DNA of 64,000 bases, taken from positions 248,001 through 312,000 of the forward strand of contig OY756144.1 of NCBI GenBank assembly GCA_963576785.1, given 5' to 3'. This DNA is from Chlorophyllum brunneum. Its lineage: Eukaryota > Basidiomycota > Agaricomycetes > Agaricales > Agaricaceae. The translations under genes were made by a program, and so were the position numbers. The notes below the pieces were generated by a model. It worked only from the letters and a program-made list of their open reading frames with translations, searched no databases and was not told the DNA's origin. Positions 5,344 through 63,831 of the stretch are shown in pieces. How positions within the stretch are numbered: the first letter of the stretch is position 1; every line of letters begins with the position of its first letter.

Positions 5344-7216
5344 TTAGACTGTGCTGGAGCCAGTCTGCCTAACCAAAGCATCCAACCTGGTGATTTCGAC
5401 ATCGAGACTCTCCGACACCATAGCAACTGTCTCCTCTGATACTGTGGAACACTCGACATCCTCCTCTCCCAGGCTTCCTGGGCTCGAATTGTGTCCAGAC
5501 TGACTGCTATGTTGTTGGAAACTGGTCCCGAGTTCATCTGAGAGCTTCCACATAGCGTTGGTAATGTTATCCACCTTCTGCAAAATATCTCGAGCCTGGG
5601 AAACTGTAGCTAAAGGCCTATTCGTCCAGTCAGATGTTCCGCGCAGTTTGTCCCCCTCTTTCTGCTTTCTTTGTGCTTGTACACTTTTTATCTTGCTGGT
5701 TTGAGTGGTTAAGATAGTCCTGATATCGCCAATGAGGCCCCGGACACTGAGTTCAAACGGCTGTGTGTCACTCATTAACGTCGTGACCCCCGCAACGAAT
5801 GATATCGGATCGGTGGAGCCCCGCACGACATGCCTACTCCATAAAAGGAAGACCATCCTTATCTTGCTGAGGCGCTCGGAAAGAATCTGACTGAGTTTGC
5901 AGACTTTCGTGATAAAGGCTTTCTTGTAATCGTCGCAAAGGATTGCCTTTGCTGAGAGGAGCTGCGTAAGAATACCAGAAACATTCCTGGTAAGGTCATA
6001 GAATTCTTCAACCTTGAGGGTCATAATGTTCTGTGTGATAGATATTAATCTGACGTATTGGAGTACCATGGGAAGTCTTACTTACTTTATTGCCTTTAAT
6101 GTGAGACAACCCTTTCAGAAGTGCGTCCATCTACAATGAACCATATGAATGTCAGTCAACAGTCCTTAACGAAAACATGTAGAGAGACCTGGTCGTCGAG
6201 TCGTAGTTGGAGCCTTAAGGTATCTCCTAACTCTAGTTGCAGGTATCCCCGAACATCGGGAGTGAGGTCCCGTTCTTGGGTCGCCTTGCGGATACCCCTA
6301 GTTGCAGGATCCCAGATCACATTTTGTAGGTCGCTCCAAGTCAACCGAGACTCGCCGAAAGAAATCTGGGCTGTGGTCGCATTCTTTTCAAATTTCTCGA
6401 TCATTTCTAGTTCAGCTTCATGAGCTTCCGCTTGGCCTTGGACCATTATACTTGGTCAGCTGGATTTATGGGGCAGATGATGGACACGAACATTGTGATT
6501 CTCGTTCCAATTTCTCCAGCCTGGTGTTAAGAAACATCTTGAGGAATGGGATGGCAACAGCCGACCCAATTGTAAGAAAGCTATTTCCACTTCCCACTAG
6601 AACATCGACATTCTCGTCGAAAACTTGTCTGAGTTCCAGACGTTTCTGCTCAAGAGCCTTCCCGGTTATCTCCTCCTTTGCTGAGCGAATTACCTCATCA
6701 TGGAACTAAAATTCCTTTATTAGTTGATGACGCAGTGTGTTGACAGGGAGGTCTATACATCGACCAGCTTCTGCTGAAGACCGAGTAATTTCTGATCTCC
6801 GGTTTTTACAACCTTCTCGGCTATTTCATCAATTCCCTGTTTCACCTTTGTTCCCAGGGCCCAGGCCTCCGCGCTGTTGTTCAGGAGCAGTGCGCTTAAG
6901 GACTGAAGCTCGAGCACTCTACATGCAGCGGACGTATTCTCGTTGCGAATTGCATATATTTCCTGCATACAGTCCTTCTGTAAGGTCTTTGCTTTTTCGG
7001 AAATCCACTCAGCGCGGGGCATTCCTCTGTTGTTGGTCTTTCAGCAGGTAATAATGGGGGAAACAAGGACACTTGCGTTGGATCTTGATCTGAGTCAGGA
7101 GTGAGGGAGGTGACAGCCCTCCGCAAAGACCAAATGAAATGTTCCTCAGCCTCTTCAGGCGGGGTTGAAGCATTCTGTGCGTTCAAGGTCGTGGCGGAGT
7201 TGTCAGCGTGAGACAT
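5344..7216 (-). CDS. Pair 1 gene A: helical protein with central hydrophobic segment
   Basis: Spliced model with exons 7216-7077, 7026-6759, 6705-6492, 6436-6189 and 6030-5344 gives 518 aa, all phases matching the other four A genes (2,0,1,0). The start is the ATG of MSHADN, aligned with the starts of the other copies. Exon 3 carries the hydrophobic stretch FLTIGSAVAIPFLKMF; exon 5 encodes a long helical, coiled-coil-like region ending in GSSTV. Intron 1 uses a GC donor (GCAAGT). Intron 3 has a weak donor (GTTCGT) and its acceptor is displaced, and intron 4 has GTCTCT, so splicing may be impaired and this copy may be decaying. Function is not recognised; it faces gene B across a 324 bp gap. 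Not a named family; a pore-forming role is inference. Confidence 0.65.
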
Positions 7217-7540
7217 AGTAAATGTTTCGGTAGATAGTTGGGTGGGTGCTGAGATCCCTTGTGCGCCATGGTGGCCTTTTAAATTTTCTGGTCGGCCTCT
7301 TGACGCTGGAATATACAAGCCCAATGTTCCAACAAGGATACCTTATTGGGGGGGAAGATCAGAAATCGGTTCATTGACCATCGAGATCCATTACAGTTCG
7401 AGCTCAATCTACGTATGATTCGGACTGGTTTAACTACAAACAGCTGTCAACATGTTGCTGGATGCAGGGCGTGTGGCGTTGCCGTGACGCTCAACAGTTC
7501 TCGACCTCACCACCAGGCTTGTCCCCTTCACTGGTGTCCT
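7217..7540. promoter_or_regulatory. Shared divergent promoter, pair 1
   Basis: The 324 bp gap separates the two start codons of pair 1. It has a TTTTAAAT box near 7276, placed as a TATA-like element for gene A, and an AACAAGGA block near 7332 conserved before gene B in pairs 1-4. The TGGCGCCA palindrome found in pairs 2-4 is degraded here to a TGACGCTGG-like sequence. Confidence 0.5.
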
Positions 7541-8484
7541 ATGGCTGACCCCCAGCCTATTGTATGTGATTACCTCAAAGTATGCACGAGATTTACCACT
7601 GGGTGGTCAACACACTCTAACATATACGCCAGCTTCCGCCTGAACAACAACCCTTCTTTAAAATCCGCGATACACCTTTCATTTTCCTGGAGAAACTCGA
7701 TCGTCTCACTCTTGTTCTGGTCTCAGCTCATGAATCGCATCCATGCCCCGTGGCTCTTCAAATCATGCGTAACCTACGCGAAGCTGCCGGGGACCAAATA
7801 AATTACCTGGCGGGTGTCCTATTCTACGGCCACAGATTTGCGAATAGATATCTTGAACTATTAGGTGCCTTAACGCGGGTCTTTGTCGAGCAGGAGACCA
7901 TCATTAACGTTCTTCGCGTAAATAACAATGCCGGTCTTGCGGCGGAGGAAATGGAAGGGGCCCAAAAAGCGATGGCAAAATTCAGACAGGACGTTGTAGA
8001 TGCTGTTCGTCACATCACGGAAGCGTTGAATGACAGTAAGTTTTTACGTCCTCAAGTCTCCAAGGCTTAAGCAAATCTCCTAGACAAGAGCTCAGGTACC
8101 ACGGTCTTCACTGCGGATAATTCTCAAGTCGTGACGGAGTTCCTCGACGCGATTGATGAATGTGCCACCTTACTTCAGCAAAATCGCGAGTATTACAGGG
8201 AAATCGAAAAACAAACCGAAGATGAGCAGTCCATTAAATCCAGTCAACCGTCGGATGAGGAGATCAAAATGATGAAAGAAAGGTGGACTACTTTTTACAC
8301 CAGCGTAAAAGGCCTGAGAACCGGTTTTGCTGCCCTTCAAATTAAGCTCGTTGGGGACGGTGATGTTCAAAGAGTTGCCGGTTCGTATAACAACTCTCAG
8401 GCCTCCGCAAATGCGATTCCTACAGGTTCTTCCAGCCCAGCGGATGCCACAAACAGAACGAAAATCGATCTTGGATGCGAATAA
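7541..8484 (+). CDS. Pair 1 gene B: helical partner, C-terminal tail lost
   Basis: Exons 7541-7579, 7633-8035 and 8084-8484 give 280 aa. The 13-residue first exon (MADPQPIVCDYLK) and intron phases (0,1) are shared by all B genes; donors are GTATGC and GTAAGT. The body is helical, with a GHRFANRYLELL element in exon 2 and QPSDEEIK in exon 3. Relative to pair 3, one extra base near 8460 shifts the frame and stops the protein at 8484. About 40 bp coding for the conserved basic amphipathic tail is also deleted downstream (8510-8535). The gene is therefore C-terminally truncated and may be impaired. Function unknown; it is divergent from gene A. Confidence 0.6.
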
Positions 8485-8530
8485 TCCATCACCCTCAACC
8501 GAGCCGAAGACCCCGTTTAAGCATGTTAGC

Positions 8531-11987: not shown

Positions 11988-14900
11988 ATGGCTACTAATA
12001 ATATTATCTCTAGTTTGCCTAAGCTCAATGGGCTGAAGAACTATGCATTCTGGTCTAGAAGGCTTCAGAATGCTTTGACTCTCATATCTGTCACTGGTTC
12101 CAACTAGTCAGAATAGACTGTAACAGATTAGGATCTCTCCCCTGGAGATCCTCAAGTCTTAATGGAGAAGGATAAAAGGAGAGATCAACTCAGAGGTCAG
12201 GCATTGGCTGTCATAAATAGCACTTTACCTGATTTCCTATTACTCCATGGACATGACACTCCTAGATTTCTTTGGAGTGACTTGAAAACCCAATTTGGGA
12301 CATCTTTTCCCACTGTAGCATATTTAATCCTGCAAAGGATGCTGCAAAAGTGCATTTCTGGGAACCAAGATCCAGCAATGGATCTAGCTGAATTGAGAAC
12401 AATGGCTTCTCAATTAGAAACAGCTAAAGTAAAGTTGCCAGAAGTTCTTGGCACAATGATCACTTTGAATGCATTACCACCTAATTGGAATACTATGGCA
12501 CAAACAACATTGGCAAATAATAACAATGTTGTAGATATGACCTGGGAGGTAGTTTAGCAAGCTATAAATGCTGAGTGGTCAAGACATGAAGGATCTAGAC
12601 CCTCTATGTCTAACCAACAAGCTTCATATGCTGCTACTACTAACTACCAAGCTTGCCCTCAGGGCAACTTCCCCAGGACTTGCCCTGGACCACCTTAGAA
12701 TTGCTTCTATCCTGGAGGTGATACCAGGGCCCAGCCTGTGAGAGGACCTTACCACCCTGCCAATCCGAGTAGGCAGCTCCCTCAGTCTTCTCCACCTACT
12801 CCTACCTAGATTAACATCCAGAAGAAGAAGAAAAAGCCTAGGAAGGGTAAGGGTAAACCACAAGCCCATATGGCAGAAGCCATGGCAGACTTTGCCGCTG
12901 CCACAAAACTAGCAGTCCATCCCTTCACTGGTCCGGCAATAACCCCCTTTGACCTAATGAGGTGTATGGATGTACCTTAACCCACTCCCACTCCTCCAAC
13001 CACTCATGTCTTAGTGAGTGAGAGACCAAAACCTGTAACTTGGGTCAATCCCAAGAAGGTCCAGTAGGTGCATGAAAATGCTTATACTGAGCTTGAGAAA
13101 AAGGTGTATACTGAAGCACAAAACTTATGTTTCACTGCCCTACTCAAAAACTCACTGTGGATTCAACAGGTGATCATCTGGCATGACCGTGTCACTGGTC
13201 CTTTGCCCATGCAAATGGCAAAGAAGTATGCTTTCGATTGTTATGATTAGAGGATGCACAAGGTCTCTTACCCCTAAGCCCAACAAGGATAATTGGTGAC
13301 ACCTCCCAGTACATCTTCAGTTTCTTCTGGTTACCCCCCAGGTTGTACCTGTGAGGGACACACGAGAGTGAGTAAATGGTTCTCTAAATATCATAACTCC
13401 GATATTAATGCAACTCATGTCCATTTTGCTTTTCTCTTACCCATTGGTTTGCCATATTCCTTAATGGTTTCACCCAAATTTGGGACAAAAATCAATTTGA
13501 AATTACACTATGTGGTAAAGATCCCAAGCATAGACTTTGTTGCCCAGGGCAATTCTCTCAAACCTGGAGAAGTATGGCCATTCTACCTTTCTCCTCTGGA
13601 GAAAATAGTAGCTCTAGCTGTCAGGACTTATAACTAGGAGTTCCCTCCTCTTTCTCAGCCCTTCCCTCCTATGGAGCACTTTCAAAGTAAGAAATATTCT
13701 CTTACTCAGAAAGTTAAGACCACTTATAGGCAACCTGCTACACTTACAGTGTTGGTAGATGAGGCCTTCAAGTAGTGATAAGAAGGAGGTCGACAACCTC
13801 ATGGCACTAGCTCAGGATATTACCTATAACATCCATGACCCCAGAACCCTCTTCTGGGCCCCTTCCAAAGTCTCCCAAGTCTGAACCCTTTGCTTTGACA
13901 CCTTAATCTGAGGTGTCTCTTGGACTTTCATCAACTGACTATGGAAGTGACTTTAAGAAGAAGGGAAGAGCTGGGTACATGATCAATTTGATCTTAGATA
14001 CTCTTACTAACCCTAATATATAGTCCTGTTACCAACATACTAACTGGCCAACTTTGCAAGAAGAAGGGCAAGGGCAAGGGGAAGGAACATCGGGGGCTGG
14101 GCATATAATCACATAATTGGGATCTTTAGGATCCCATAATTATGTTAATACATGCAAATCTATAAATGAGAAGTATTTTAACACTTCTCAAATTTCTTAC
14201 TTCTCTACATGCATACCCAATCAATATTTAAGAGTACTGGATCAAATGAGATCTTGATCATTAAGCAATAATCAAATTATAATGCTACTAGAAGAATATA
14301 GTGATATATGGTTATTAGACTCAGGAGCATCATGTCATTATACCCCTTATGCGGAAGACTTTATCAACTTTGAAGAACTTGAAGTTTCAATCCCAATTAA
14401 AACTGTAGGAGCACAAGGTCTCTACCTTAATGCAGTTGGTCTTGGTACAGTTATGCTTAAGCATAGAGTCTGTAACAGGAAGATTGACAGCATTCAACTA
14501 ATGCAGATATTAATATATCCAATCTTCCTTCTAAAAGGAACTTATAAACAACTAATGTCAGTGGGACAGTTATACCAAGATGGCAAAACTATTAGAACAG
14601 ATGCCAATGATTCAGTAGTAGTTGATAGTGAAGAAAATGCTATTCTTCAAGCATACCCTTTAGCAAATCATAACACTACTTTACATTTTGTTAATACCGA
14701 AATTGTACATTTGGAACATACAGCTATAGCTGCAGATCCAATTGTTGGCTACAAAGTTGTATATGTGAGATTAGGATATCCCTCTAATTGTATCCTCAAT
14801 CATTTTGAGAAAAATATGATTGGGTTTACTCCAGTGCAGATGTAACAGTTGTGCCAAGGGAAAGATGCACCAGAAATCCTTTAGAAAAAACCCTACATGT

Positions 14901-17900
14901 ACAAAGTGTCCATTCAAAAGAATTCATTTGGATTTAGTTAAACTTCCGATTCTTTCTTACCATAAATTTAAATAGGTCATGACCATAATAGACAACTTTT
15001 CCTCTTATGGATGGATTTGCTTCCTCTATAAGAAATCAGAAGCAGCAGAAGAAATGAAAAATTTCATTGCATTAATTCAGACTCAATATGAGACTAAATT
15101 AAAATATCTCTGCACTGATAGAGGAGGAGAGTATGCAACTGATGAGTTACAATCTCACTTGCGCTCATTAGGAATTATACATGAGACTAGTGCACTGCAC
15201 ATACACCAACAAAATGGTCAAGCGAAACACTTGAACTGAACTCTAATGGATAAAGCAGAAGCCATGAAGTATCATACTTGTATTCTTGACAGTTGGTGGG
15301 AGTTTTCTATAGATCATGCAATACATATCTATAATAAAACACCAGTATCATAGCTCATGTGGAAAACACCTTATGAAGTATTGAATCAGAAGATTCCAGA
15401 CATCTCCAAAAAGAGAGTCTTTGGCTGTGGTACTTATGTCTTTCTCCCAAAAGAGATAAGAGACAATAAACTGACAGTAAAGTCAGAACTCATGATTTTC
15501 CTTAGTTGGACATCTGATAGGAAAAACTATTGTTTCATGAGACACTTAAATGGAAATGTAATCTATATATCTCCAACAGCCATATTCTCTAAAGAACATT
15601 TCTCTAAATGTATTAGGAAAAAGCAAGAAGAATGGATGAACCAACTATCATCTTCTACTTCTCGAAGTACACTTTCAGAAGTAATTGTCTTCCATACTCC
15701 AGATCCATCTACTGGTTTATCTTTTGATAAACTACTAAGCCTTCTACCCTAAACTTTTCCCAAAGGTTCTCTGGAAGATAGAACTTATAGATCTGTTCAT
15801 GGATGTATTCCAACTCCTTTCTCTGAACCTAAAAAGAATAAAGGAAAGGAAAAAGCACCAAATATCGATACAGATATTCAGGAGGAGTGGGATGGTATTG
15901 TACAAAACATTCTCTTTCCACCAAGAGAAACACAAACACCAGAAGATAATGACAGTGATGGGTTATCATATGCTGATCCACCTAATCACCCTAAAGGTTT
16001 GAACTATCTGCCTTCTCAAAGAGATGATCCAGATGAACAACCATTCATACCCTATACCCTTGTCAAAGATGATTGAGATGCTGGTCCTTCTGTACTACAA
16101 GGTCACTCGGATCAAATACTGGTTCCTGAAATACCTCAGAGACTGCAAAGAACCAGAAAAGTACCTGAACATCCAGGAAACTTCTATAGTTCTACCAAGC
16201 ATCCGACCAAAATTCTCCAGGACTATGAGATGTTCTAACCTCCTAAGTCAAAATTAACAAGTTCTATAAGTAGACTTGTTAGACAAATTTGATCAGAGGG
16301 TTCCAAAACTGGAATAATCGATAGATATTCTCAGTATAAAGCTTCTATAATAGAAGACTTATGCAGAGAAAGAGGAGTAGGGATGATTGATTATCTGTAT
16401 ACTCAAAAAGTTGAATCACCATTAGTTCCTATTTATTTCAAGGATCTAGATCAACTACCATCAGAAGAGAAATCTAAATGGTGGAAAGCGTGCTTAGAAG
16501 AGTTAAATTCACTCAAAGAAAGACATGACTTAGCTAAACTTCCGCCCAGAAAAAAAGCTGTCAAAAATAGATAGGTCTTTATACCCAAATCAGATGGTTG
16601 ATACCATGCTCAACTAGTAGCAAAAGGATTCTCTCAGATAGAGGGAATCAATTACGATGAATTATTTTCACCAGTAGTATGTTATGAGACAGCACAACTC
16701 ATATTTGCAGTCACTGCCCTCAATAATTGGGAAATGCTCAGTTTAGATGTTAAAACTGTTTATCTCTATAGAAAACTGGATGAAGAACTCTATATGGAAC
16801 TTCTAGAAGGTTTCAATACAGGTCATGGTAATATAGTTTGAAAATTAAACTGAGCTATTTATGGACTAAAGCAATCTGGACAACAATGGTGGAAGGAATT
16901 GACTAAGTTAATGACCAACCTAGGATTTGTCTAATCCAAACTAGATGCTGGAGTCTATTATTATTATGACTCTGAAACCAAAGAGCTTATTATAGCTCTA
17001 GTCTATGTAGATGACTCAATGTTCATTGGAATTAGAAGCTCTAGACTTCTACATAAGAAGCGAGTATTCTTATGAAGAAATAGGAATGCCAAGACCTTGG
17101 ACTAACCAAAGAGTTTCTTGGCATAAAAATTTCGTGAAATCCTATAAACCAATCAATTACCCTAGACCAAATAGATTATCTAGGAAAAGTTCTTGATTGA
17201 TTTAAAGTAATTGGAAAAGAAGAAATCCCATTACCAAATGGATTTATACTCAAATCCAATACAGGACAAGCAATACCTGACTTCATAAAGAGGTATCAAC
17301 AGTTAGTAGGATCAGTTATGTATCTGATAATAGGCAGTTGGTCTGACATAGCCTTTGCCACTGTTAAGTTATCACAACATATGACCAATCCTACTAAAGC
17401 ACATTATAATGCAGGCTTATATTTGCTAAAGTATCTTAATGCTACTCACAAATATAGAATTACCTATAATGGAAGTTCTATGCAAGGCCTTAATACCTTT
17501 TCTGACTCTGATTGGGCTGGTGATCCAATTAGTTGTAAATCTGTAACTGAATATTTCTGTTTATTAACTAGCGGAGCTATTGCTTGGTTAAGTAGAAAAC
17601 AGAAAACTGTTGCATTATCTTTTACCAAAGCTGAGTATATGGCTTTGTCAGATTGCAGTCAACAACTTGTTTGGACTGTCAATTTGTTAGAAGAAATTGG
17701 TATCCGATTATCAGCCCCTTATCTTTTTGGTGATAATGAGAGTTCAATATTTTGGACCAAAAATCCAGTAACAGAAAAACAATCAAAACATGTCAATGTC
17801 AAATACTATTATATTCGTGATTTGGTAGAAGAAGGAAAGATTGAAATATTCTCTGTGAAAGGCACAGAAAATCCTACTGATATTCTCACAAAGAATTTAG

Positions 17901-17953
17901 ACAAAATTAAATTCAATCTATTCCAACCTTGCCTTGGCTTGATGTTTGAGTGA
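11988..17953 (+). pseudogene. Copia-1 gag-pol remnant
   Basis: Order seen: Gag from ATG 11988 (KLNG-type N-terminus; main open part 12162-12557, stopped by a TAG at 12556 in the triplet before a Gln codon); protease with WLLDSGAS near 14310; GAG-pre-integrase; integrase with HLDLV (near 14930) and TDRGGEY (near 15115), but the third catalytic Glu is replaced in NGQAKHLN (near 15215); RT with YVDDS (near 17007); RNase H with SDSDWAGD and FTKAEYMAL (17500-17645); and the C-terminal KHVNVKYYYIRD. At least a dozen stops and frameshifts interrupt it. It is non-functional. Confidence 0.85.
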
Positions 17954-17987
17954 TTACAACTCTACATCAATACAGAGTAAGGAGGAG

Positions 17988-18548: not shown

Positions 18549-19135
18549 ACCTTCTTCTCCTTGCCTTTTGCAGAAGATGAAGGTTCCTTTGAGACTGACT
18601 CTTCCAAAGCAGGTTCTTTCAGAGTGAGTTTAGGATATTCCCTGGGAGGTTCAGGGGGACATTGTTTGTGACCTGACACAACCCAGAGAGATTTTGCCTG
18701 AAGGGCAGCTTTCATGTTATTAGCCTACACATGATAGTTTGTACCATTGAGCTTTGGAAACTGTAAAGTTTCTGAACTCATTTTGCCAAGACTAGGGCCC
18801 ATAACCTAATGAGAGTGTAATGGTGCAGAGGTAGAGTTGGTAGACAATACAGGAGGGAGAAACTGAAGTCATGACATGAAAAGTTGTTAGATTAATCACA
18901 TATTACAGTACAATCAACTCACCTGAAGTCACAACACAAAAAGTCGGACTTCAGGGCTATAAGACAACATCTTTTTATACTACTAGACAAAGTAGAAGTT
19001 TCAGAACAGTATAATCTTGTGAAAGACATAAATTGGAGCTTTTCTAAATCATGAGGAGTTAAAGAAACAAACCAAGGGAAAGGAGAAGAAAATTGAGTTA
19101 TCATCAGTACGACGTCATAGCTCATCACTTTGACA
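18549..19135 (-). mobile_element. Copia-2 fragment, right part: Gag N-terminus and 5' LTR
   Basis: On the minus strand the Gag start lies near 18783 (MSSETLQFPKLNGTNYHV), followed by a stop where Trp is expected. The GGGCCC primer-site-like sequence is near 18791-18800. The LTR is 18810-19135, reading TGTCAAAG...TCTCA on the minus strand. Immediately to the right lies B-gene exon sequence, so copia-2 inserted into a B gene. The same junction recurs at 49214. Confidence 0.8.
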
Positions 19136-19500
19136 AAGCAGCGAATACTACCGAGAGATAGAAAGACAAACCGAAGATGAAGAGTCTATCAAATTTAATC
19201 ACCCCTTGGATGAGGAGATCAAAATAATGCAAAAAAGGTGGATCGCCGTTTTCTACGAGCATAAAAGACTTGAAAGATGGCTTTGGGGCCCTTCAAGTCA
19301 GGATACTTAGGGGCGGAAATATTCGAAAAATTGACAACTGGCAGGACAATGCTCAGACTTCCAGAAATGTAGCACTCGATGGTAGTTCCAACCCAACGAA
19401 TTTCCCGAACGGCCAAAAGGCCATTGTAGACGCGAGTGCATCTGATCCATCACCATCAACCGACCCAAAGACTTCGCACTGGAGGTCACTCTGGTCATGA
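19136..19500 (+). pseudogene. Truncated gene B last exon (upstream of pair 2)
   Basis: The sequence aligns with exon 3 of B genes from YYREIE to the end, with the QTEDEESIK and FGALQVRILRGG elements. A one-base insertion near 19250 splits the frame, and the C-terminal tail is shortened. The upstream exons are missing because copia-2 is joined at 19135. It is a non-functional relic of a sixth B gene and is repeated at 49215-49579. Confidence 0.8.
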
Positions 19501-19812
19501 ATTTTCTCCTACCTAACCTTTGGTTAGGGCGGTTCTAGTTTTGAGTATCAGACCGGGGCTAGTATTATCTGATGTATTTAGAGTATTCCTAATATGTCCT
19601 AACGAACAACAGAGTTATGGGGAATGATCAAATGTCATATGAGTCAGAGTCCTCGGACGCGCCCGTAACCGCCTGTCACCGGTTTCCTTTGTTCTACTCA
19701 AGGCTTTATCTGTAACAGGCAAAAAAGTCGGACTTTATATCTTGTAACCGGGATGCGAAGTGTTTCCACATTCGCATAGTATGTGTCAGGACCGGTTCTA
19801 GGGTAGAGAGTC
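19501..19812. repeat. Flank between B relic and pair 2 gene A
   Basis: About 310 bp with no gene. It resembles the 3' flank that follows B genes (a TATTTAGAGTA motif near 19574-19584 that also follows the other B genes) and is matched by 49580-49889. It includes the 3' end region of pair 2 gene A. Confidence 0.6.
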
Positions 19813-48457: not shown

Positions 48458-48759
48458 TGTTATAAACTATAGATAGATATTACATTCCTATCATGTGCCC
48501 ATAGTACTCATCATTCTCTTGTATCAGTTTCACCTCCTATTTCACTCCATAAGGCTGTACTCTTTCTGACTTGTTCTACTTCTCTCCTCTGACTCTATTA
48601 CTCTGTTCCTTTATTATTAGAGCTCACCACTATATAAAGTGTAGTAATACTTGATGTATTCCTTACACTTTACCAATTGTATCATCCCTTTTTCTTTTCT
48701 CTACTTCCTTGTCTTTATCCAAAGACTTGCAACCTGAGTCCTAGACTAAGGTTGTAACA
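48458..48759 (+). repeat. Gypsy right LTR
   Basis: This 302 bp LTR begins TGTTATAAACTATAG and ends GGTTGTAACA, after a purine-rich AAAAGGGGAGG tract at about 48444-48454 that could serve as plus-strand primer. It is followed by AACCC. Confidence 0.9.
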
Positions 48760-49214: not shown

Positions 49215-49579
49215 AAGCAGCAAATACTACCGAGAGATAGAAAGACAAACTGAAGATGAAGAGTCTATCAAATTTAATCACCCCTCGGATGAGGAGATTA
49301 AAATAATGCAAAAAAGGTGGATCGCCGTTTTCTACAAGCATAAAAGACTTGAAAGATGGCTTTGGGGCCCTTCAAGTCAGGATACTTAGGGGCGGAAATA
49401 TTCGAAGGATTGACGACTGGCAGGACAATGCTCAGACTTCCAGAAATGTAGTACTCGATGGTAGTTCCAACCCAACGAATTTCCCGAACGGCCAAAAGGC
49501 CATTGTAGACGCGAGTGCATCTGATCCATCACCATCAACCGACCCAAAGACTTCGCGCTGGAGGTCACTCTGGTCATGA
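49215..49579 (+). pseudogene. Truncated gene B last exon (upstream of pair 4)
   Basis: It is a near-identical copy of 19136-19500, with the same frameshift and the same 5' truncation by copia-2. It was therefore copied together with pair 2/pair 4 rather than broken independently. Confidence 0.8.
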
Positions 49580-49889
49580 ATTTTCTCCTGCCTAACCTTT
49601 GGTTAGGGCGGTTCTAGTTTTGAGTATCAGACCGGGGCTAGTATTATCTGATGTATTTAGAGTATTCCTAATATGTCCTAACGAACAACAGAGTTATGGG
49701 GAATGATCAAATGTCATATGAGTCAGAGTCCTCGGACGCGCCCGTAACCGCCTGTCACCGGTTTCCTTTGTTCTACTCAAGGCTTTATCTGTAACAGGCA
49801 AAAGTCGAACTTTATATCTTGTAACCGGGATGCAAAGTGTTTCCACATTCGCATAGTATGTGTCAGGACCGGTTCTAGGGTAGGAAGTC

Positions 49890-51778
49890 CTAGTTAGAGT
49901 TCGATCCCGCCAAAGCGTTCAACCTGATGATCTCGCTCGAGAGCTTCGTCGACACCATAGCAACTGTTCTCTCCGATACATTGAAAGGGTCCGCTGGGGG
50001 ATCCTGGGGTTCCGTCCCGCCTACGCTTCCCGAATTCGAATCCTGTCCGGCACGATTGTCATGATGCATGAGACCCACCCCAAGTTCATTTGAGAGCTTC
50101 CACATAACGTTGACAACATTGTCCACCTTCTGCAAGGTATCCAGAGCCTCGGTAGCCGTAGCCAAAGGCCTCCCTACCCAGTCGTGTGATCCATGTAATT
50201 TATCCCCCTCCTTCTGCTTTTCTTGCGCTCGTTTGCTCTTGCTCTTGCTTGTTTCAGCGGTTAAGATGGTCCTAATCTCTCCGGTAAGGGTGCGGGCATT
50301 GCGATCAAAGGGAACCATTTCGCGTGTCAACGCAGTAACCTCCGCAATGAGGGGAATCGGTCCGGTGTGGCCCCGTGTAACATACATAGTCCATGGAACG
50401 AAGACCTCCCGTATCTTGTTAAGGTGATCGGAAAGGACTTGGCACAGCTCGCAGACCTTCGCAATAAAGGTCTTCTCGTGATGGTCGCGAATAATATGTT
50501 TTGTCGAGAGGAGTTGGGTGAGAATACGAGAAATATTCTTGTTGTGATTGTAGAACTCTTCAACTTTGAGGGTCATATCGCTCTACGTAATGAGAATCAA
50601 CATCATCCGCTGAGATACAGATTACGGGAGTTACTCACTTCGATGGGGGACATTTCATTTAGAAATTCTTTCATCTAGAGTTATTTACGTCTATGTCAGC
50701 CAACGGCCCTACCGAAGACACATAAACCCACTTGAATTTCGAAACTTAGCTGGAAGCTTAAGGCAGCGTCTAATTCCACATCCACAATATTCTTGGCGAA
50801 AGGCTGTTGCTCCGTCGCCAGGCGGATTCCCTCCGCCACCGGATGCCACATCTCTCTTTGCGTCAAGCGCCATTCGAGACAGCAGTCCCCAAGAGCAGTC
50901 TGAGCTTCGTTCGCTTTCCTTTCCATGTTCTCTATTCGTTTCAGCCCAGCTTTGTATGTTTCCTCTTGTTCCCGTGATACTGGTACCAGTTCCCTCGGTT
51001 AGTTGGGTTTGGGTGAGGGGAACGTGGACACTAACGTTGTAGGGCTTGGTTAATCTTTTCTGATTTAATGTAGACAAACATCTTGAGGAATGGGTTCGCA
51101 ACAGCCGACCCAATTGAGAGGAAGATGTTCCCGGATCCCTCTGGAACGTGAGTATTCTCGTAGCCAACCTGCTTGATTCGCAAACGATTCTGTAGTTTGC
51201 CCTGCTCAAGGAGCTTCTGGCTTATTTTTTGCCGTGCTGGGCGAATTGCCTCATCGACAAACTGGAGGTCCCTTGTTAGCTAATAGCGCAGAATCGAAAC
51301 AGGAATAAATGCGATACCTCGATCACTTTCTCCTGAAGGCTACTCAGTTTCTTCTCCCCAACTTCTCCAAGATTTCCGGCTACTTCTTCGAAGCACTGTT
51401 TCACTTTCTTCCCCACAGCCCAGGCCTCTGCGCCGTTGCTCGTGACCTGTATACCAATGGAACGGAGTTCCTGTACTTTGCATGCCGTGGATGCATTCTC
51501 ATAGCAAATCGCTTCTACCTCTTGAGCAATTTCGTTTAGCAAAGTCTTTGCCCTCTCCGAAAGCTCTTCGATGCATGGCATGTCTCTATTGTCGATTGTT
51601 CAGCAGGTGTTACGTGGAAGAAAAAATAAGAGACTTGCATTGAATCTTCATCGACACCTTCGTCCAGAGCGAGACAGGCGACAGCCTTCCGCAAAAACCA
51701 AATGAATCTTTGGCCAATCTCTGTAGGGGGCGTTGAAGAATTTTGTGTGTTCAGCCTCTCTTCGACGTTGTTAGCCAT
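49890..51778 (-). CDS. Pair 4 gene A: helical protein with central hydrophobic segment
   Basis: Exons 51778-51639, 51585-51318, 51261-51036, 50979-50732 and 50582-49890 give 524 aa, fully open. It is almost identical to pair 2 A, lacking the six-residue TEERLN repeat in exon 1. Most differences cluster in exon 4 (ERKANEAQTALGD; residues around the KNIVDVELD site) rather than exon 5. Intron 1 has the GC donor GCAAGT. The hydrophobic stretch follows GSGN in exon 3, and no signal peptide is seen. Function not recognised; it pairs with the divergent gene B. Confidence 0.8.
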
Positions 51779-52098
51779 GAAAGTAGTAGATAATTAAGCA
51801 GTTGTTGAAGCAACATTCCACCCCATGAGAGCCCTTTAAATATCCTGCCTTGGCGCCATAGTACACAATAATCCAGGGTGTACTAACAAGGAGAGCCTTG
51901 TCGAGTAAATCGGAAGATCGAACCGTTGAAGTTCGAGGGTTTGGGCTTTGAGTTACGTACGGCAGCTTGGCATGGTTCGGATTGGTGGTGGTTCGGAACA
52001 ACACTCGGCCGCCGGCCCGGCTGTCACCCTTGCTGGCGTGTGAAGGGGTTTGTTGCTTCCTCCCTGGACGTTGAACAAGTGCGCGGCTGGGTTGTGCT
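51779..52098. promoter_or_regulatory. Shared divergent promoter, pair 4
   Basis: This 320 bp gap is nearly identical to that of pair 2: TTTAAATA near 51836-51843, the TGGCGCCA palindrome at 51851-51858 and an AACAAGGA block near 51885. Confidence 0.55.
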
Positions 52099-53137
52099 AT
52101 GGCGGAACCGCAACCTATCGTATGTGCTTACCTCAAAGTGAGTCTCAAATTTTTATCTGGCGTTGGTCGACTTCACCGATTCACTTGCCAGCTTCCGCCC
52201 GAGCAACAAACCTTTTTCAGAATGCGAGAGATACCCCTTACTTTTTTAGAGAAGCTCGATCGTTTGAGTCTTGTTCTGGCCGCATTTCATGATGAACACC
52301 CATGCCCCGCGGCTATCCAAATTATGCGTGATCTACGTAGGTCTGCTGGGGAGCAATGTGACCAGCTTTCGGTGGTCATGTACTATGGCCATAGATTTGC
52401 GACCATATATCTTGAGCTGCTGCATACCCTGCCTCCGGCCTCGGCCTGGGAGGAGACATTCGTCAAGCTTCGTCGCGTGAATATTCACGCTGTTCTCGCG
52501 GCGCGGGAGATGGGAGAGACACAGAAGGGGATGGTCAAGTTTAAGCAAGACATCACAGATGCTGTTCGTCGAATCACAACAGTGTTGAACGACAGTGAGT
52601 GCCATGATTTCATGTCTCTCCAATACGTATGAAAGACCATCAGACAAGCGCACGGACGATACTGTATTCACCACCGAGAACTCACAGGTTGTGACCGAAT
52701 TCCTACATGCAGTGGATGAATGCAACAGGCTACTTCTACAAAGTGGTGACTATTACAGAGCGATAGAACAACAAACCAAAGATGAAGAGTCCATCAAATC
52801 CAGTCAACCTTCGGATGAGGAGGCCGAAATGATGCGAGACCGATGGACCACATTCTCTGCGAGTGTAGCGGGTCTGAGGGACGGCTTTGGGGCCCTCCAC
52901 AATATGGTACTTAGGGGCGGGGATATTCAAAAGGTTGATGGCTCGTACCACAATGCTCGAACTCCCGGAGACACGGCGCCATCAGGTTCTCCCGACCCAA
53001 CGGACGGCCAAAATGGACGAAAAGCGATTGTGGACGCCGTATCTGGTCCATCACCATCGACCAAACCAAAGGCCTCACTTTGGAGATCTTCCTTACACCG
53101 CCTGTTCTCCTGCTTTACAACAAAACAGTTTAGCTAG
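52099..53137 (+). CDS. Pair 4 gene B: helical partner with amphipathic C-terminal tail
   Basis: Exons 52099-52137, 52192-52594 and 52644-53137 give 311 aa. Intron 2 contains a TGA (near 52629), which confirms splicing. The protein differs from pair 2 B at a handful of positions, several in exon 2 around EETFVKLRRVNIHAV; exon 3 is almost unchanged. It ends in the same SSLHRLFSCFTTKQFS tail. No signal peptide or membrane helix. Function unknown. Confidence 0.8.
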
Positions 53138-54109
53138 ATTACCAGTTTCTGGGATTGGGATGCAGCTAGCCTTATCTAATGTATTTAGAGTACTCCTACG
53201 TGCGCTATCATGCCTTAACGAACAGAGTTACGCAGAATGGAGAATATCATACTAGCCGAAGTAATTCTCGAACGCGCCAGTAGAATTCGTCGCCGGTTTT
53301 CTTAGGGAGGATCAATGACCCAAGGGTTTACCAACAAGGAATCTGACGGTTGATACAGGTCATATCCGGACTGAGGATACGAGCATCGACACTCAGGTCG
53401 CATGCATGCGGTCCCTTGTCTTGAACTGGGTACAGCTTGACGGCCGAACCTCTCTAGTGAACTGATGTTTGTTCTTCGATGTTACAAAAGGAACGGACAA
53501 GCGGGTTCCAATATCGGTGCTCCCTTCCCAGGAACGTTACATCTTGTAGCCAGGATGCAAGATGTCTTTCTACATTCACAGCAGTATACGCCAGAGACTG
53601 GTTGCGATGGCAGCTGGACTTTTTGCTGTTGTTTTCTGAGCCCTTAGATATATTTGGTTCGCAGGAGTTCACGTACACTATCGTGTCACTGCAACTCGGT
53701 CAAGTTTGGGGTCTCACGCAGCCTCCGCTACCGTGCGCCGTCACCTGGATCTGATGATCCTGTGTCCCTCCATTGTACTATTCCCTCTCCATCCCGCATT
53801 CAGCTTCTATTGTTCTCTCCCCTTCTGACAGAAGCGAACCAGTGGGCCCTAGTGGACCGCTGTTTTTGTTTCATCCGTTTCTCAACGCCTATCCGATTTT
53901 ACCGCAAGAAGTCAGGTCCTTACCATTGAGCCAGAAAAAGAAGCTGAGCCACCAGACGTTCAGCAAATCCATCCCATGTTACATGAAGGCGTGTCGTTGG
54001 AAGCCGTTGTCAATTGTCCTGCCACTGAGGTATTTCCAAGGGGACATGATTGTCCAGATATCGGACAGAACTTTACGGCTGTCCGGGTTAAGAGTCTGAC
54101 GAAAAAACA

Positions 54110-55017
54110 ATGACCTCTACCGTGCTGGCATCCCTCCGAAGCTCAGGCGAAAGAAGACTGGGGCACCGACTCGGAGGATGGGGTAGGCGTTGACATGTGC
54201 CCAAAGTCCTCTGCGACCAAGGTGCCCACCGTCCTGGCTCAAATATGGAGCTCGAGTCGTGGTGGAGCAACTTATTATAGTGGCACAGGAGAGTGCTGGA
54301 TATCTTGGGTGAGTGCCCAGCCACGCCTCCGCCTCGAGGGACTAATGGGACCAATTGTCCTCAGCAGCAACCTCACTGTCCGTGCTCGCTTGCCTATCAC
54401 TCCCCTTGCCCGTCGCCTGCCTGAGGACCTGGTTAGGACATTGGTTTTGCATTTGAAACGTCCACATCCCGAGCTAGCCTTCATCCTAAGCCTGCTAGTG
54501 GAGGGAGGCTTATCGCGATTACACGACAGTTATTCGATCAAAAACAGAGCGGGGAACCTGGTCGCAAACGATACGAATTATTCACCCAGTTGGCAAGATC
54601 GTTCATTCAGCATCCCGAGCCATGCCAAGCTTCCTTCCACAGGATGCAAGAGCAGGGAAAGGGGGGAAGAGAATCGAAATTCTACTCAATTACCCATTAG
54701 ACGGTACAGAGCAGAGGTTGCAGGTGAGTCTTGAATTCCCGTCCGCGAGAAAGTGGGCTAACGACTCGATCCAAAATTTCAAAAGGACTGCAGGCATTAC
54801 GAGCACAAGCGCTAAACCTGACGGCGGCCAACGAAAACACTACGACGTCGCGATAACCAGTTTACCCCGCACCTGTACCATTCCCCTACTTCTCTTCCTA
54901 CCCCATTCAAGATATGCGGAATCCTCCCGTCATATCCCATGTAATACAGCCCGATCTAATCCGTGTTACCCTCCACTTCTTCAGTTACTCTTAACGTTCG
55001 ATCCGGATTTGTTATGA
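54110..55017 (+). CDS. Alpha gene, only intact copy (unidentified, 237 aa)
   Basis: Exons 54110-54182, 54251-54308, 54365-54723 and 54794-55017 join in consistent phases (1,2,1) to 237 aa without stops. Introns are 68, 56 and 70 nt. The second has a GTGAGT donor, GACTAAT branch sequence and TCCTCAG acceptor; the third has GTGAGT and CTGCAG. The first, with GTAGGC and GGAG, is weaker. Exon 2 encodes VVVEQLIIVAQESAGYL; exon 3 has an amphipathic stretch LPEDLVRTLVLHLKR; the C-terminus is Leu-rich (LLLFLPHS). The start is supported by the diverged relic at 9509. No family recognised. The copies at 1.2, 24.0, 33.0 and 58.8 kb are broken. Confidence 0.5.
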
Positions 55018-56959
55018 TATAGCAGTTTGTTGCACACGGGCATCTCTACTGAGAACAATAAAACAAACTGAATAATCGGTGAACCCGAGGAATAGGAAGA
55101 GCACACTGAATGTTGAAGTACGAATGAATTTTGCCAAACAATGAGTTACGCATGGAACCGGTAGTACATCGTATCCCCTGAATAAACATCAACCGAAATA
55201 CATCATGAGTAAGGTTATACCCCACTATTGTTCCGAAATCTCACTTTCCTTCCCATACGTATATTTTAATTACTGAGAGGCCTTCCTCCTTCCTGGCATG
55301 TTCTGAACACACGGAAATAACGATGTTTTCCCTTAATCCTTTCGTGATAAGTACACAATTACTTTCTTCTGAACTTAACGAGGTGAAACATCTTCCACTG
55401 AGTGAGGAATGACTCCAACCAGTTGTTATGCGAGACATGTCTCCTTGTCTACTTCACGTTTCATGATGTACAACTAAGGACAGCTTCGCCTACTTAAACG
55501 CGAACGGGATTCCCTGTAATACATGCTTCCCACGACAAGTCTGATCGTTTACCTCTCAAACCGAATGATGTTCATCTCACTTGACAAAATAACCACAGCC
55601 CGCTGCGGCACGCCTTCACGCCCACTAACCCAAACAATTCAAAACTTTTGGAATCTTCGATCCATGGAACCGAAAATCGTTAGTCACCCTCAGGGTTATT
55701 ATTCGTGAATGATGAACCGGATCAACGCTGGCTTTTAAAATAAGGTCTCGTGTGTAATAGTCAGGGAAGGTGTGAGAACCTTTTATGTTCTCAATGATAC
55801 CGCCACCTCGTGGTGGCAGGACCAAGGGTTCTTCCATTTATTGTACCTTGGTAAGGTTGAAGCGCTGAAGGTCGAGATATCCGGATGTGTATCACTTTCG
55901 AGTCGCCCGGGGTCTAAGAAGAAGACGGTGGGCCTTTCATGATGATATCGTCAAGCCTCGCATGGATCGGTTCGACAGTATTTTCTCCCCAGTCAGTATA
56001 TTTCGTCACCCAGCATCACGGATTGGTTTTGATGAATGCATGTTCATATAGTAATCCAATTGGACCCTAAACATGAATAGGTGTGGGTGCTCGGGCTTGG
56101 TACAGAAGCCTGATTGGAAGTCCGGGCGGTTAGCTCCCGAGATAGTTGGATCGAATCGTTTCACACCTATGAATGGATTTTGAACCCTCTATAGCCTCAT
56201 CTTGCTAGTAACGCATGTCTGGATGAACGTATTGATTTTGGGCAGCAAGATGTGTGAAAGATCTGGTGAAGGCTTCAGATTAAAATATTTTAAAAGGCAG
56301 TGTTAGGCGAAGGACTCACGACGACGAAGCTATCCACAGGGTATAAGTCCTCTATCAGCACCCGTCCTCCTTGAAAGTAGTGGCCACCTCGTCGCGACGG
56401 ACGCAAGGATTCATCTTCCAATATGATCACCACCAAATCGCATCATACGCGGCCCTGATAAGCGCCGACTATCGCGCAAAGGATTCCTAAAAACATCCCC
56501 TTGAGCGCCTGAGAGCCTCTCGGACACACCGGGATAGGAAAATAGGATCCCGCGCATCGTTTTGCTTGCGTTCACTTGCTATCATTAGGTCCTTCAAGAC
56601 CTCCACGACGTATGTTTGGTTTTGATGGCGGTGACCCTGACTATCGGACCTGAGCCAATGTGCGCCCCACTTCAGTCAGTTTTGGTAAAAAGTCACTTTG
56701 AGAGAGCTTTGATTAGCGGATGCCGGTCAGTAGACAGGTGGAGGAGGTACATACCTGACACAAGGTACGGAAAAACCTGACTTTGCCTTTACCGTTTTTC
56801 GATAATGGGTTGCGGTCCGAAGACTCTGGAGATGTTGCTACAGTCCTATTCTCGTCCACATCGAAACAGATTGATTGAATCTGGTGTGTGTATAGGCCTG
56901 GGGTACGTAGCTAGTTTAGTAGTGGGTGTAATTTAGAGAAAGACATACGAACCTCATAA

Positions 56960-58079: not shown

Positions 58080-59575
58080 AACATTCGGCACCAGTTTTCC
58101 TAAAAGTAGGTCAGGTCGCATGTGCGCAGTCTCTTGCCTCAAACTGCATACCCTAAAGAGCTGATGTTTGTTCTGGAAATTTACAAAAAAAAATGCAGAC
58201 AAGCGGGGTCTGATATCGATACTGCCCTTCTCTGGAATGTTACGTCTTGTAGTTAGGATGCAGGATGTCTCTCATAGTAGTATATACCAGGGACCGGTTG
58301 CAATGGTAGCTGGACTTTTTCCTGTTGTTTTCTGGCTCGTTGACATATTTGGTCCGTCAGAGTTCACGTACACCATCGTGTCACATTTCATTAACATTCA
58401 TTTGGGGTCTCACGCAGTCGCCGCTACCACGCGCCGTCAGCCAGATCCGATGATCCTGTCTCCCTCCATTGTACTATTTCCTCTCTATCCGCGTTTAGCT
58501 TCTTTTGTTCTCTCTCCGTCTGACGGAAGCGACCAGTGGACCTTAGTGGACAACTGTTTTTGTTTCATCCGTTTCTCAACGCCTACCAGATTTTATCGCA
58601 AGAAGTCAGGTCCTTACCATTGAGCCAGAAAAAGAAGCTGAACCACCAGGCGTTCCGCAAACCTGGTTCTTTCTATCTCGTGTTACATGAAGGTGCGCCG
58701 CCGGAGGCTGTTGTTAATTGTCCTCCCACTGAGGGATTTCCAAGGGGACACAAGTGTCCCGAAGTTGAACCTCGAAATTTAGGGCCGTCCGGGTTAAGAG
58801 TCTGACGGAACAACAATGATCGCTACCGCGTTGACATCTCTGCGAAGCTCGGGTGAAAGAAGACTGGGGCACCGACTCGGAGGATGGGGTAGGCGTTGAC
58901 ATGTGCCCAAAGTCCTCTGCGACCAACCGTCCTGGCTCAAATCTGGAGTTCGAGTCGTGGTGGAGCAACTTATTTTAGTGGCACAGGAGAGTGCTGGATA
59001 TCTTGGGTGAGTGCCCAGCCACGCCTCTGCCTGGAGGGACTAATGGGGTCAATTGTCCTCAGCAGCAACCTCACTGTCCGTGCTCGCTTGCTTATCACTC
59101 TCCTTGCCCGTCGCCTACCTGGACCTAGTTAGGACATTGGTTTTGCATTTGAAACGTCCACATCCCGAGCTAGCCTTCATCCTAAGCCTGCTGGTGGAGG
59201 GAGGCTTATCGCGATTACATGACACTTATTCGATCGAAAACAGAGCGGTGAAACCGGTCGTAAACGATACGAACTATCCACCCAGTTGGCAGGATGGTTC
59301 GTTCAGCATCCCGAGCCATGCCAAGCTTCCTTCCACAGGATGCAAGAGCAGGGAAAAGGGGGGAGAGAATCTGAATTCTACTCAATTACCCATTAGACGG
59401 TGCAGAGCACAGGTTTCAGGTAAGTATGGAATTCTCGTCCACGAGAACGTGGGCTAACGACTCGATCCAAAATTTTAAAAGGACTGCAGGTATTACGAGC
59501 ACCAGCGCTAAATCTGACGGCAGCCAAAGAAAACACTACGTCGCGACAACCAGTTTACCCCGCACCTATACCCGA
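58080..59575. repeat. Duplicon copy e: post-B flank and alpha remnant without a pair
   Basis: Sequence normally found downstream of a B gene (58080-58500) directly follows gamma sequence, so the A/B pair expected between them is absent. The alpha remnant (58816-59575) follows. Homology to the other copies ends near 59575. Confidence 0.75.
58816..59575 (+). pseudogene. Alpha gene remnant (copy e)
   Basis: The ATG at 58816, the GTAGGC, GTGAGT (near 59005) and GTAAGT (near 59418) donors and the CTGCAG acceptor (near 59489) are all kept. A short deletion near 59120 shifts the frame and gives a TAG at about 59128. The GTAAGT donor here is stronger than in copy d and supports the intron model. The C-terminal exon diverges after 59575. 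Confidence 0.5.
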
Positions 59576-60598: not shown

Positions 60599-62491
60599 TC
60601 ATGCAGAGCATTCGACGGTCAACCTAGTAATTTCGGTAGCGAGTTTGATGGAAATTTCACTCGCCAGCCTTTCGGAAACGAGGAAAAAATCTGCGGGAAA
60701 GAGTTCTGGCTCTGTTTCTTCCCTCTCGTCACTTCTTCTGGTCCGGCGGCTGTCGTGGTGGAACAAGCTCATCTGGAGCTCCCTGGAAAAACTCAATATC
60801 ACGTCGATAGCATCCTCCAGCGCCTGTAGCGTATCCAGACCTTGGCCTAGCGTGGCTATAGAAAACTTCCCCAACCGAATAGTGGTTCCGTTCCTGTCCT
60901 CCTCTTTCTGCCTTTCTCGTGCCTCCTTGCTCTTGTGCTTGCTGATCTCGGTGGTAAAGGTGGCCTTGATTTCGCTAATGAGGGCACGAGCGAGCTTTTC
61001 GAAGGGTGCAGTGTCGCGTGTCACAGTCGTGATTTCGGGGATGAAGGTCAGGGGTCCCGTTAAACTGCGTTTTAGATAAATTGTCCACGGAACGAAGACC
61101 GCCTGTATTTTGCTGAGGTATTCGCTGAAATGTCTGCCGAGTTCGCGGGCCTTCTGGATAAATTTGGCCTCATGGCGATCGCGGATGATCTGCTTTGCGG
61201 AAAGCAGCTGGGAAAATATGGCAGAAATATCCTTAATTTGTTCATGGAAGGCTTTTACTTTGCTGGTCATAACGCTCTGCAAGGTCATTAGTCTTGTCCC
61301 AGGAAAGAGCGGAAAACAGGTCTCCTACCGCAGGACCGTAATACGGTGAGAACCTTTCTAATAGTTCGCCACACTATGACCGATGCCATCGATATCAACC
61401 CGGCGGTCACGCGAGGGAGGAACCTTCGACTCACCTGAGTATCGAACTGTTCCAAATGCATCAGAGACGCGTCTAATTGCGTTTTCATCTGCGGTTTCAT
61501 TTGGGGTGGGATCGACCGGGTCCTCACTATCATGGATATTTCATATTCGACATCGCCAAATATTGCGGTTTGCACCTCCTTCCACAAGCTACCGCACTCA
61601 GCGAGTTCATCGTGGGCCGCGACTGTCTTCTGCTCGATCTTATTGATGACACGCAGTTCAGCCTCGGACAATTTCGCCCTTTGTTGCATCGCTGCAGTCT
61701 TGGTCAGCTACCGGTATGGGATGGTGGAAGAGCAAATCAAACACCGACCCACGAGCGCCTCCTCCGGGTCTTCTGTGTTTTTACGGGAAAAAAATCTAGC
61801 CAAGGACTTGGTGACCACTGCCACTACACCGGCCAAGCCTGTGGGATCCAGTGATGACAATGGTTCAATAGCTTCGATGCCACCTTCAAAGTCGAATTGG
61901 TAATTCTGCGAGGGTCTCTGCTCCCCTCTTGACTCAAGAAGCTTCGAGTTCACCGCTGCCTTTGCGGGCCGGATTTTCTGATTTTGGAACTACATGGTTC
62001 GTCAGTAAGTGATAGAATCATATGGAATGGATATAACTCAATACCTCGATGAACCTGCATCTAGTACCTTCGAGTATGTTTTCTCCCGTATCGTCAAGAT
62101 CCCGGGATGTGGCGTTGAATTGTCCCTGGAGCTGTAAACCCAAAGCCCAGGCCGTCCGGCGATTGCTCGTAACACATATATCAATTGTTTGGAGACTTTG
62201 CACGATACCCGCAGAGGACCTCGCCTTCTGACGAATCTCGCGTATTTTTTGGTAGAGTTTCCTCAGTGGATCCTGCGCATCTTCTAAGAGTCGTCCTGTG
62301 CGTGGTGTGCTGTCGTCCATCATTCAATGGCGCATTTACAGAAGGCCAGCAGGAATTAACACTCACTGATTCTCGTCCTCGGCTCCAATGAAGGATTCAA
62401 AAACTTTCTGTAAGGACTCCTGAAGGTCTGCCAAGGGACTTGTCTGGGTTGACTCGGCGAGCTGAGTATTCAATGAATCATTTGTAGCCAT
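60599..62491 (-). CDS. Pair 5 gene A: diverged family member
   Basis: Exons 62491-62367, 62309-62045, 61989-61749, 61691-61435 and 61276-60599 give 521 aa with the same four intron phases as the other A genes. Donors are GTGAGT, GTATTG, GTCGGT (weak) and GTGAGTCG. Sequence identity to the others is modest but the architecture is kept: SNRRTAWALGLQLQ in exon 2, a hydrophobic stretch (GLAGVVAVVTKSLARFF) in exon 3 at the place of the GSAVV stretch, a Glu/Lys-rich helix in exon 4, and in exon 5 MTSKVKAFHEQIKDISAIFS and ISKHKSKEARERQKEEDR. Conservation of layout over sequence implies purifying selection. Function unknown. Confidence 0.78.
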
Positions 62492-62781
62492 GTGAGGCAG
62501 ATGATTGAATATTGAAAGTTCGCAGGGTTGTGGGGGATTGAAATGTTTATGCTGAGGTCGGGTCTGTAGCCTCTTTATACATTCCTGAACAACCGCGCCA
62601 GCGCTGTAATGAGGTCGACTACAACAACATAAAGGTTGGATCAATGATCGCCGTGATCGGGGTGCTATCTTGATTACATAACAATGCGAGCTGGTTCGAT
62701 GCAATGTTCAGCCGTTCCGGCTGTCAACGGCAGCACCTCGTTTGTTCTCGCTTTTCCTTGACGCACTTTCTGTCTGCCACC
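62492..62781. promoter_or_regulatory. Shared divergent promoter, pair 5
   Basis: This 290 bp gap has a CTTTATAC TATA-like box near 62573 toward gene A, followed by a GCGCCAGCGC sequence near 62596 at the place of the TGGCGCCA palindrome. The AACAAGGA block is not evident. The two start codons remain head to head. Confidence 0.45.
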
Positions 62782-63831
62782 ATGACCGAGTCACAACCCA
62801 TCGTGTGTGCTTTCCTCAGAGTAAGCCAGGAAACTTGACATACAAATGGTATGCTGACTTTGCTTAATGCATTAGCTGCCTCCTGAGCAACAACCATTCT
62901 TTCGCATGAAAGAGCTGTCCTACGTGTTCCTGCAGAAACTCAATCACTTAAGCCTAGCCTTGGCTGTATCTGAGGACCCTCATACCCTCACAGAAGCCAA
63001 ACAGACTCTGCATGATCTGCGCGAAGTTGCTGGGGATCAATGCAATAATCTTGCAGCGGTCATGTATTTCGGCCTCAGATTCGCTAATAAATGTCTTGAA
63101 CTGCTGGGATCACTCATAAAAGGGGCCCCTGAGGAGGAGACTGTTCTCAACTTCACCGGTATTCACAGTAACGCTGGCTACGCGGCAGGCAAGATGGAGG
63201 AAACTCAGAAGGGAATGATTCAGTTTGGGCAGGAGGTTGGAAATGCTGTTCGTCGTATTACAACTACACTAAACGGCGGTGAGTCTCTACATTTTTCACC
63301 CGTCGCTGCTCAAAGCATATAATAGACAAGAAGAACCTCGAGATGTTTACGGCGGAGAACTCTCAGGCCGTCACTGACCTCCTCCAAGCTGTGGACGAAT
63401 GCAGTACGTTACTTCAACAGATTATCGACTACTATAGAGAGATGGAAGTGCTTTTCGCGGACCACGGGTTGATCAAATCCACCCCACCTTCGGAAGAAGA
63501 GATAAAATTCATGCAAGAGAGATGGAAGGCGTTTGCAAAAAGCGTAGCAGATATCAAAGGTGGTTTTGGCATTCTTCGGAGTCGGTTACTTGCAGGCCCG
63601 GATATCGGTACCTCCTATGACTCCCCGGATCCAAGAACAGCTCAAAGCACAACGTCTATGAATGCCCCTGGCCGGCCGGAAAACGAAGCGAGGCCGAAGG
63701 CCATTCTAGATGCGACTGCCTCGGGCACTACACCTCCCGATCCTTCTTCACCCAGAAAACCAAAATCCTCATTCTTTATATCGTCTTTGCATCGTCTTCT
63801 TTCTTGCCTAAGACTGAAGCAGATTGACTAG
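62782..63831 (+). CDS. Pair 5 gene B: diverged family member, full-length tail
   Basis: Exons 62782-62820, 62876-63278 and 63326-63831 give 315 aa. Exon 1 (MTESQPIVCAFLR) and exon 2 length (403 nt) match the other B genes exactly. Donors GTAAGC and GTGAGT; acceptors TTAG and ATAG. Elements kept: LPPEQQPFF at the exon 2 start, FGLRFANKCLELL, ENSQAVTDLL, PPSEEEIKFMQERW. The linker is longer and rich in Pro/Ser/Thr, and the protein ends FISSLHRLLSCLRLKQID. The tail is thus conserved even in the most diverged pair. Function unknown. Confidence 0.78.

Follow-up and report, generated by a model that had tools for sequence, protein, structure and literature searches.

A window of 64,000 nucleotides from Chlorophyllum brunneum (contig OY756144.1, here C6, positions 248001-312000; the genome comprises 38.9 Mb in 14 contigs) carries five pairs of genes, termed A and B, all arranged head to head, at window positions 5344-8484, 19813-23077, 29031-32273, 49890-53137 and 60599-63831. 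The ten genes were rebuilt from conserved exons and then checked with our own spliced aligner; the ends of all five pairs fell exactly where an earlier inspection of the letters alone (the sequence-only reading) had placed them. In each pair A lies on the minus strand and B on the plus strand. In pair 1, A1 (5344-7216; exons 7216-7077, 7026-6759, 6705-6492, 6436-6189, 6130-6086 and 6030-5344; 533 amino acids) and B1 (7541-8484; exons 7541-7579, 7633-8035 and 8084-8484) are separated by a shared 5' flank of 324 nt (7217-7540). B1 is only 280 amino acids long: close to its end it leaves the reading frame of the other copies, and it has no counterpart of their C-terminal tail. The remaining pairs consist of A2 (19813-21719, 542 amino acids) with B2 (22039-23077, 311), A3 (29031-30930, 540) with B3 (31249-32273, 305), A4 (49890-51778, 536) with B4 (52099-53137, 311), and A5 (60599-62491, 536) with B5 (62782-63831, 315). 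A4 and B4 are recent copies of A2 and B2, at 95% and 96% amino acid identity, respectively; A5 shares 29-36% identity with six other A genes.

The sequence-only reading had also described fixed intron positions and phases and a B exon 2 of 403 nt in four of five pairs, and both features were reproduced. A1-A4 have six exons with intron phases 2,0,1,0,0, and the B models of the window have three with phases 0,1; all B models that extend to the start codon have a first exon of 39 nt, and exon 2 is 403 nt in all window copies except that of pair 3 (391 nt). Exon 5 of A5 depends on the model, being absent in the first, 20 nt in the second and 45 nt in the third; the 45-nt version matches the pattern of the other A copies and gives the best six-exon model (62491-62367, 62309-62045, 61989-61749, 61691-61435, 61373-61329 and 61276-60599), in which this short exon is still in doubt. 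Two models of A1 differ by 6 nt in where exon 3 ends. Four of the 35 introns in the window models, the first intron of A1, A2 and A4 and the fifth of A3, have a GC donor, and the others have GT. The GC-AG intron 1 recurs at the conserved position in two pairs to the left of the window. The distance from ATG to ATG within pairs is 290-324 nt, and a TTTAAA element lies close to the A side in six of the eight intergenic regions aligned. A sigma-70 promoter scan of the A1-B1 gap was set aside as not meaningful for a fungus.

On average, purifying selection acts on A as well as on B. The pairwise ratio of non-synonymous to synonymous substitution rates (dN/dS) was 0.19-0.45 for A (eight copies; a copy at 331 kb was excluded for a frame skip in its model) and 0.14-0.39 for B (nine copies, with B1 trimmed to the part that follows the other copies); no ratio could be computed for three A comparisons and one B comparison, and many of the dS estimates lay above 1, so that the ratios between distant copies are rough. 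With protein identities of 29-96% among the five window copies, fixed intron phases and dN/dS below 1 in every computable comparison, the pairs are far from a chance arrangement. The distance matrices of A and B agree closely (Mantel r 0.986 over 10 pairs, 5000 permutations, p 0.0002), also when only the six close pairs are used (r 0.953, p 0.009), and the two trees give the same small groups, the order among groups being not fully alike. We take this agreement as co-inheritance and not as contact, because joint duplication alone would produce it.

The family is larger than the five pairs in the window. All matches of our searches of the genome itself, with DNA and protein queries, fell at C6:229-495 kb, their counts being lower bounds. 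Sixteen head-to-head pairs, segmental copies included, lie at C6:200-462 kb and represent 11 types, the remaining copies being segmental duplicates; window pairs 2 and 4 are 95-96% alike. One pair is degraded (229/230 kb) and seven lie at 233-312 kb; two divergent types occur in three copies each (331/330, 359/361 and 397/396 kb; 336/335, 353/356 and 402/401 kb), and a third occurs twice (422/424 and 442/440 kb), with only the later part of its A modelled. Within this locus, full-length A and B were never found as neighbours in any other orientation. Joint inheritance of the two genes is supported by the shared groups of the trees, the matrix agreement and the exclusively head-to-head layout of full-length genes; the co-retention put forward in the sequence-only reading is not absolute, as lone B genes exist. 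Some A genes have a B fragment behind them or tail-to-tail with them (267, 297, 334 and 339 kb and copies). These fragments include degraded plus-strand ones tail-to-tail with A2 (window 18898-19518, C6:266898-267518) and with A4 (window 49213-49597, C6:297213-297597), and further unpaired B fragments occur in the locus. Unpaired A pieces comprise a 3' end at 287 kb (window 39357-39473, minus strand; 39 amino acids identical to A1, within a copy of 3881-5465), a copy of exon 6 at 349 kb, directly preceded by a transposon-like open reading frame, and a damaged remnant at 445 kb. Very distant B-like genes are located at C6:416218-416895, 445234-445458 and 494822-495533, two of which share a phase-1 intron.

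Relatives elsewhere were recovered only as exon-sized pieces from metagenome contigs. Among 5.8 billion proteins, B2 matched one (P0001, E 5e-57); full-length A3 gave no match, whereas an exon 6 profile built on 11 A copies gave four, all exon-sized (P0002-P0005, E 4e-50 to 2e-88), with only about 8000 candidates scored in the two A searches. Identity is 52% between P0005 and the 422-kb A type and 63% between P0002 and A3, so that at least two A lineages are present in metagenome contigs; spliced fungal genes are probably poorly represented in the collection searched. The sequence-only reading could assign neither gene to a named family, and the Pfam and NCBIfam copies used hold no model for them: nothing convincing was found in Pfam with five A and 10 B sequences, or in NCBIfam with seven A and one B, both up to E 10 within HMMER filters. 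PADLOC (seven A, nine B) and sequence searches of solved structures likewise yielded nothing convincing, and profile comparison revealed no homology between A and B. PADLOC matches of single members (E 0.002-0.25) were taken as chance, and Pfam near-misses, such as that of one A sequence to Syntaxin (E 0.00024, yet below its cut-off), as coiled-coil bias. Word-based searches of open-licence papers, which are not proof of absence, returned no description of such a fungal pair. The A/B system is real, unusual and outside the family libraries used.

The fold matches of the predicted B structure point to alpha-pore-forming toxins, and the model suggests the five-helix-bundle frame of the ClyA family (helices 1, 2, 3, 6 and 7). 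YaxA and XaxA are absent among the 50 VIA matches listed for B, which says nothing on A, and a viral fold library gave nothing coherent among the best 50 of 405. B ends in a tail of the type RSFLRRVFSCLSIKKF, and this tail with its cysteine is kept in all 10 distinct full-length types free of a frame skip or stop; it is lost in B1 and in the copy at 450 kb. The tail may be a lipid-modified membrane anchor. The open frame of the B-like gene at C6:416218-416895 ends in a similar cysteine-bearing tail. No signal peptide was seen by eye at the B starts (no predictor was run, and most of the A starts inspected were incomplete). In A, the window of highest Kyte-Doolittle hydropathy (1.1-1.9) begins at residues 174-189 in seven of eight copies, and in the eighth the second best begins at residue 176. 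By our reading, the exons flanking this stretch may form stalk helices; in YaxA, according to the available text of PMC5935710, a hydrophobic foot sits at the tip of a coiled-coil stalk. Exon 6 of A, folded alone, reached a predicted local distance difference test score (pLDDT) of 45, and its VIA list, a mixture of designed bundles, chemoreceptor domains and others, was rejected as a guide to the fold of A and kept as no more than a weak point of contrast with B.

The locus lies close to genes of the NOD-like receptor (NLR) type. With 150 of 225 candidates scored, 13 NACHT-type hits fell at C6:28-209 kb and one at 447 kb, within the locus. Four lie within 50 kb of its left edge, and by a rough count about 3% of the genome reaches such a density; within 25 kb, however, there is only one, a figure matched by about 11% of the genome. 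Both distances were picked after the fact, and the proximity is only suggestive. NACHT or NB-ARC domains fused to A or B were not found in the Pfam-scanned sequences, the NACHT genes being separate neighbours. The one within the locus, a NACHT/NPHP3_N gene at C6:447654, stands upstream of a lone B gene.

Given the hydrophobic stretch of A and the tail and fold of B, we tentatively favour a reading in which A and B are a co-inherited pair acting at the membrane as a binary ClyA-type pore former near NLR genes. Two helical, apparently cytosolic proteins would be expressed from a common 5' region and, as co-inherited partners, would act jointly at the membrane. B would be a five-helix bundle on a ClyA-type alpha-pore-forming frame, held at the membrane by its amphipathic, cysteine-bearing C-terminal tail; A would be the larger partner, with an internal hydrophobic stretch suited to a foot that, as in YaxA, forms a hairpin between a pair of stalk helices. 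The two might then assemble on the membrane and permeabilise it, and the pairs might serve as a defence or self/non-self effector repertoire near the NLR genes. The defensive, competitive or self/non-self role put forward in the sequence-only reading may hold, and is helped by the resemblance of the B fold and by the nearby NACHT genes. The fuller proposition, a fungal ClyA-type system comprising a one-locus repertoire of co-evolving matched pairs, tethered by the B tail to the fungus's own membranes and serving as NLR-linked effectors of cell death or allorecognition, seems unlikely.

By our own helix assignment, and with intron-coded residues excluded, helices 3 and 6 of B are joined by no more than a short loop of mostly polar residues, and the membrane-active region (helices 4-5) expected at that place was not found. 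Because this region is missing and A is unmodelled, membership in the ClyA family is not established, and the pairs are best read as working like a binary ClyA-type module. Lone B genes count against strict co-dependence: one at C6:432223 is intact in one model and has one skip in another, one at C6:450157 has lost its tail, and a damaged one is repeated at 325, 367 and 390 kb. No A was found beside the lone B genes at 432223 and 450157, where aligner scores were 19 and 23 against a background of 22-32 (14 stretches). The lack of a membrane insert, together with the conserved tail, the many divergent co-inherited pairs and the nearby NACHT genes, would suit a module that makes no pores, in which the tail keeps B at the inner membrane, A binds its cognate B, and the copies are specificity variants in allorecognition or NLR signalling; since the fold matches of B point to pore formers and selection is on average purifying, not positive, we consider this somewhat unlikely.

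It is also conceivable, if distinctly less probable, that the proteins are a cytosolic defence toxin against grazers or competitors, freed on damage to hyphae or fruit bodies, like the two-part fungal aegerolysin/MACPF toxins. The multi-copy arsenal, the B starts devoid of a visible signal peptide and the nine HlyE-like genes described in the available text on Saprolegnia parasitica (PMC3681718) would agree with this, but a tail that anchors B to membranes would point to activity within the fungus itself. There is a slim chance that B resembles the pink-coloured protein of Pleurotus (PDB 8ii8), a helical bundle that binds a ligand, and that A serves as carrier or regulator; identity to 8ii8 is only 10-11%, B-profile sequence searches of solved structures did not retrieve it, and neither A nor the tail is given a role. 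It is equally improbable that the pairs have no function for the organism and have multiplied neutrally or selfishly in an unstable part of the chromosome: segmental duplications at 98-99.8% identity, transposon-like open reading frames and degraded copies speak for it, and dN/dS values of 0.14-0.45 across both genes and the two A lineages also seen in metagenome contigs speak against it.

The HD1/HD2 mating-type pairs of mushrooms are divergently arranged around a short shared promoter and are strongly diverged. The A/B pairs share these traits; however, the Pfam scans found no homeodomain in them. The homeodomain mating-type locus, considered for its divergent layout, was rejected, since PF05920 hits lie elsewhere, far from the cluster (C6:1904679 and C2:911493), with STE3 on C10 and C1; the layout of NACHT, STE3 and homeodomain genes would suggest a tetrapolar basidiomycete. 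Aegerolysin and MACPF proteins have beta-rich folds. They form, as far as the sources available describe, a two-protein fungal pore former (ostreolysin A6 with pleurotolysin B), and neither family was matched in the Pfam scans of five A and 10 B sequences. XaxAB, YaxAB and PaxAB are bacterial binary ClyA-type alpha-pore-forming toxins, whereas A/B is fungal, intron-bearing, divergently transcribed and present in many pairs; B carries a tail but no foot insert, the length of A is about 540 amino acids, and no sequence similarity was detected. In XaxAB and YaxAB the products of two adjacent genes act together; for A and B, adjacency and co-inheritance were seen, and joint action would be a prediction. 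The five-helix-bundle frame suggested by the B model would be shared with ClyA, Hbl, Nhe, Ahl, Smh, Mak and Cry6A, although B lacks the membrane-active region that this family has between helices 3 and 6. The haemolysin E-like genes of Saprolegnia parasitica are, in the available text of PMC3681718, likewise ClyA-like and duplicated in a filamentous eukaryote, but there they are an oomycete set of nine genes of one kind, with recognisable HlyE similarity and thought to be of bacterial origin. The HeLo, Goodbye-like and basidiomycete MLKL-like domains of fungal NLR systems are also helical, and HeLo is described as membrane-directed and found with NLR genes (PMC9815663, available text). At the sequence level none of HeLo, Goodbye or MLKL matched in the Pfam scans of five A and 10 B sequences up to E 10 within HMMER filters. 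Such domains would have a pore helix at the N terminus, ahead of a four-helix bundle, whereas in B the membrane-type element that is conserved sits at the C terminus.

Should B prove to be a bundle of the ClyA type, with A as its partner at the membrane, fungi too would have binary alpha-pore formation, in the form of a tandem co-inherited repertoire near immune receptors. The pairs would then supply a candidate, testable effector for basidiomycete-type NLRs, which the available text of PMC9815663 regards as still insufficiently described. Even apart from a pore mechanism, this is a family beyond the Pfam and NCBIfam models used, whose divergent pairing has been kept over deep divergence, and partner specificity is therefore directly testable by mixing A and B of different pairs.

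The surroundings of the pairs are repetitive. Segmental duplications at C6:324-405 kb and 421-444 kb carry A/B pairs; they extend up to 24 kb at 99% identity, several are inverted, their copies are 98-99.8% identical, and they could partly be assembly effects (a run of N lies at 380603-380802). In the window, a 5.7-kb unit made up of pair 2 or pair 4, its flanking sequence and a degraded B fragment is duplicated at 96.7% identity (18676-24364 and 48757-54422). Another repeat, about 82-98% identical, recurs between pairs (1195-3881, 24046-26746, 33004-34189, 36325-37842, 54107-56746 and 58810-59572), and two of its open reading frames match no Pfam family at E 0.01; all 14 genome matches listed for the part at 1300-2400 lie on C6:237-393 kb. 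Also between pairs are open reading frames at 12132-17950, 34614-36359 and 42971-48000, which we take from their motifs to be pieces of Copia, LINE and Gypsy retrotransposons.

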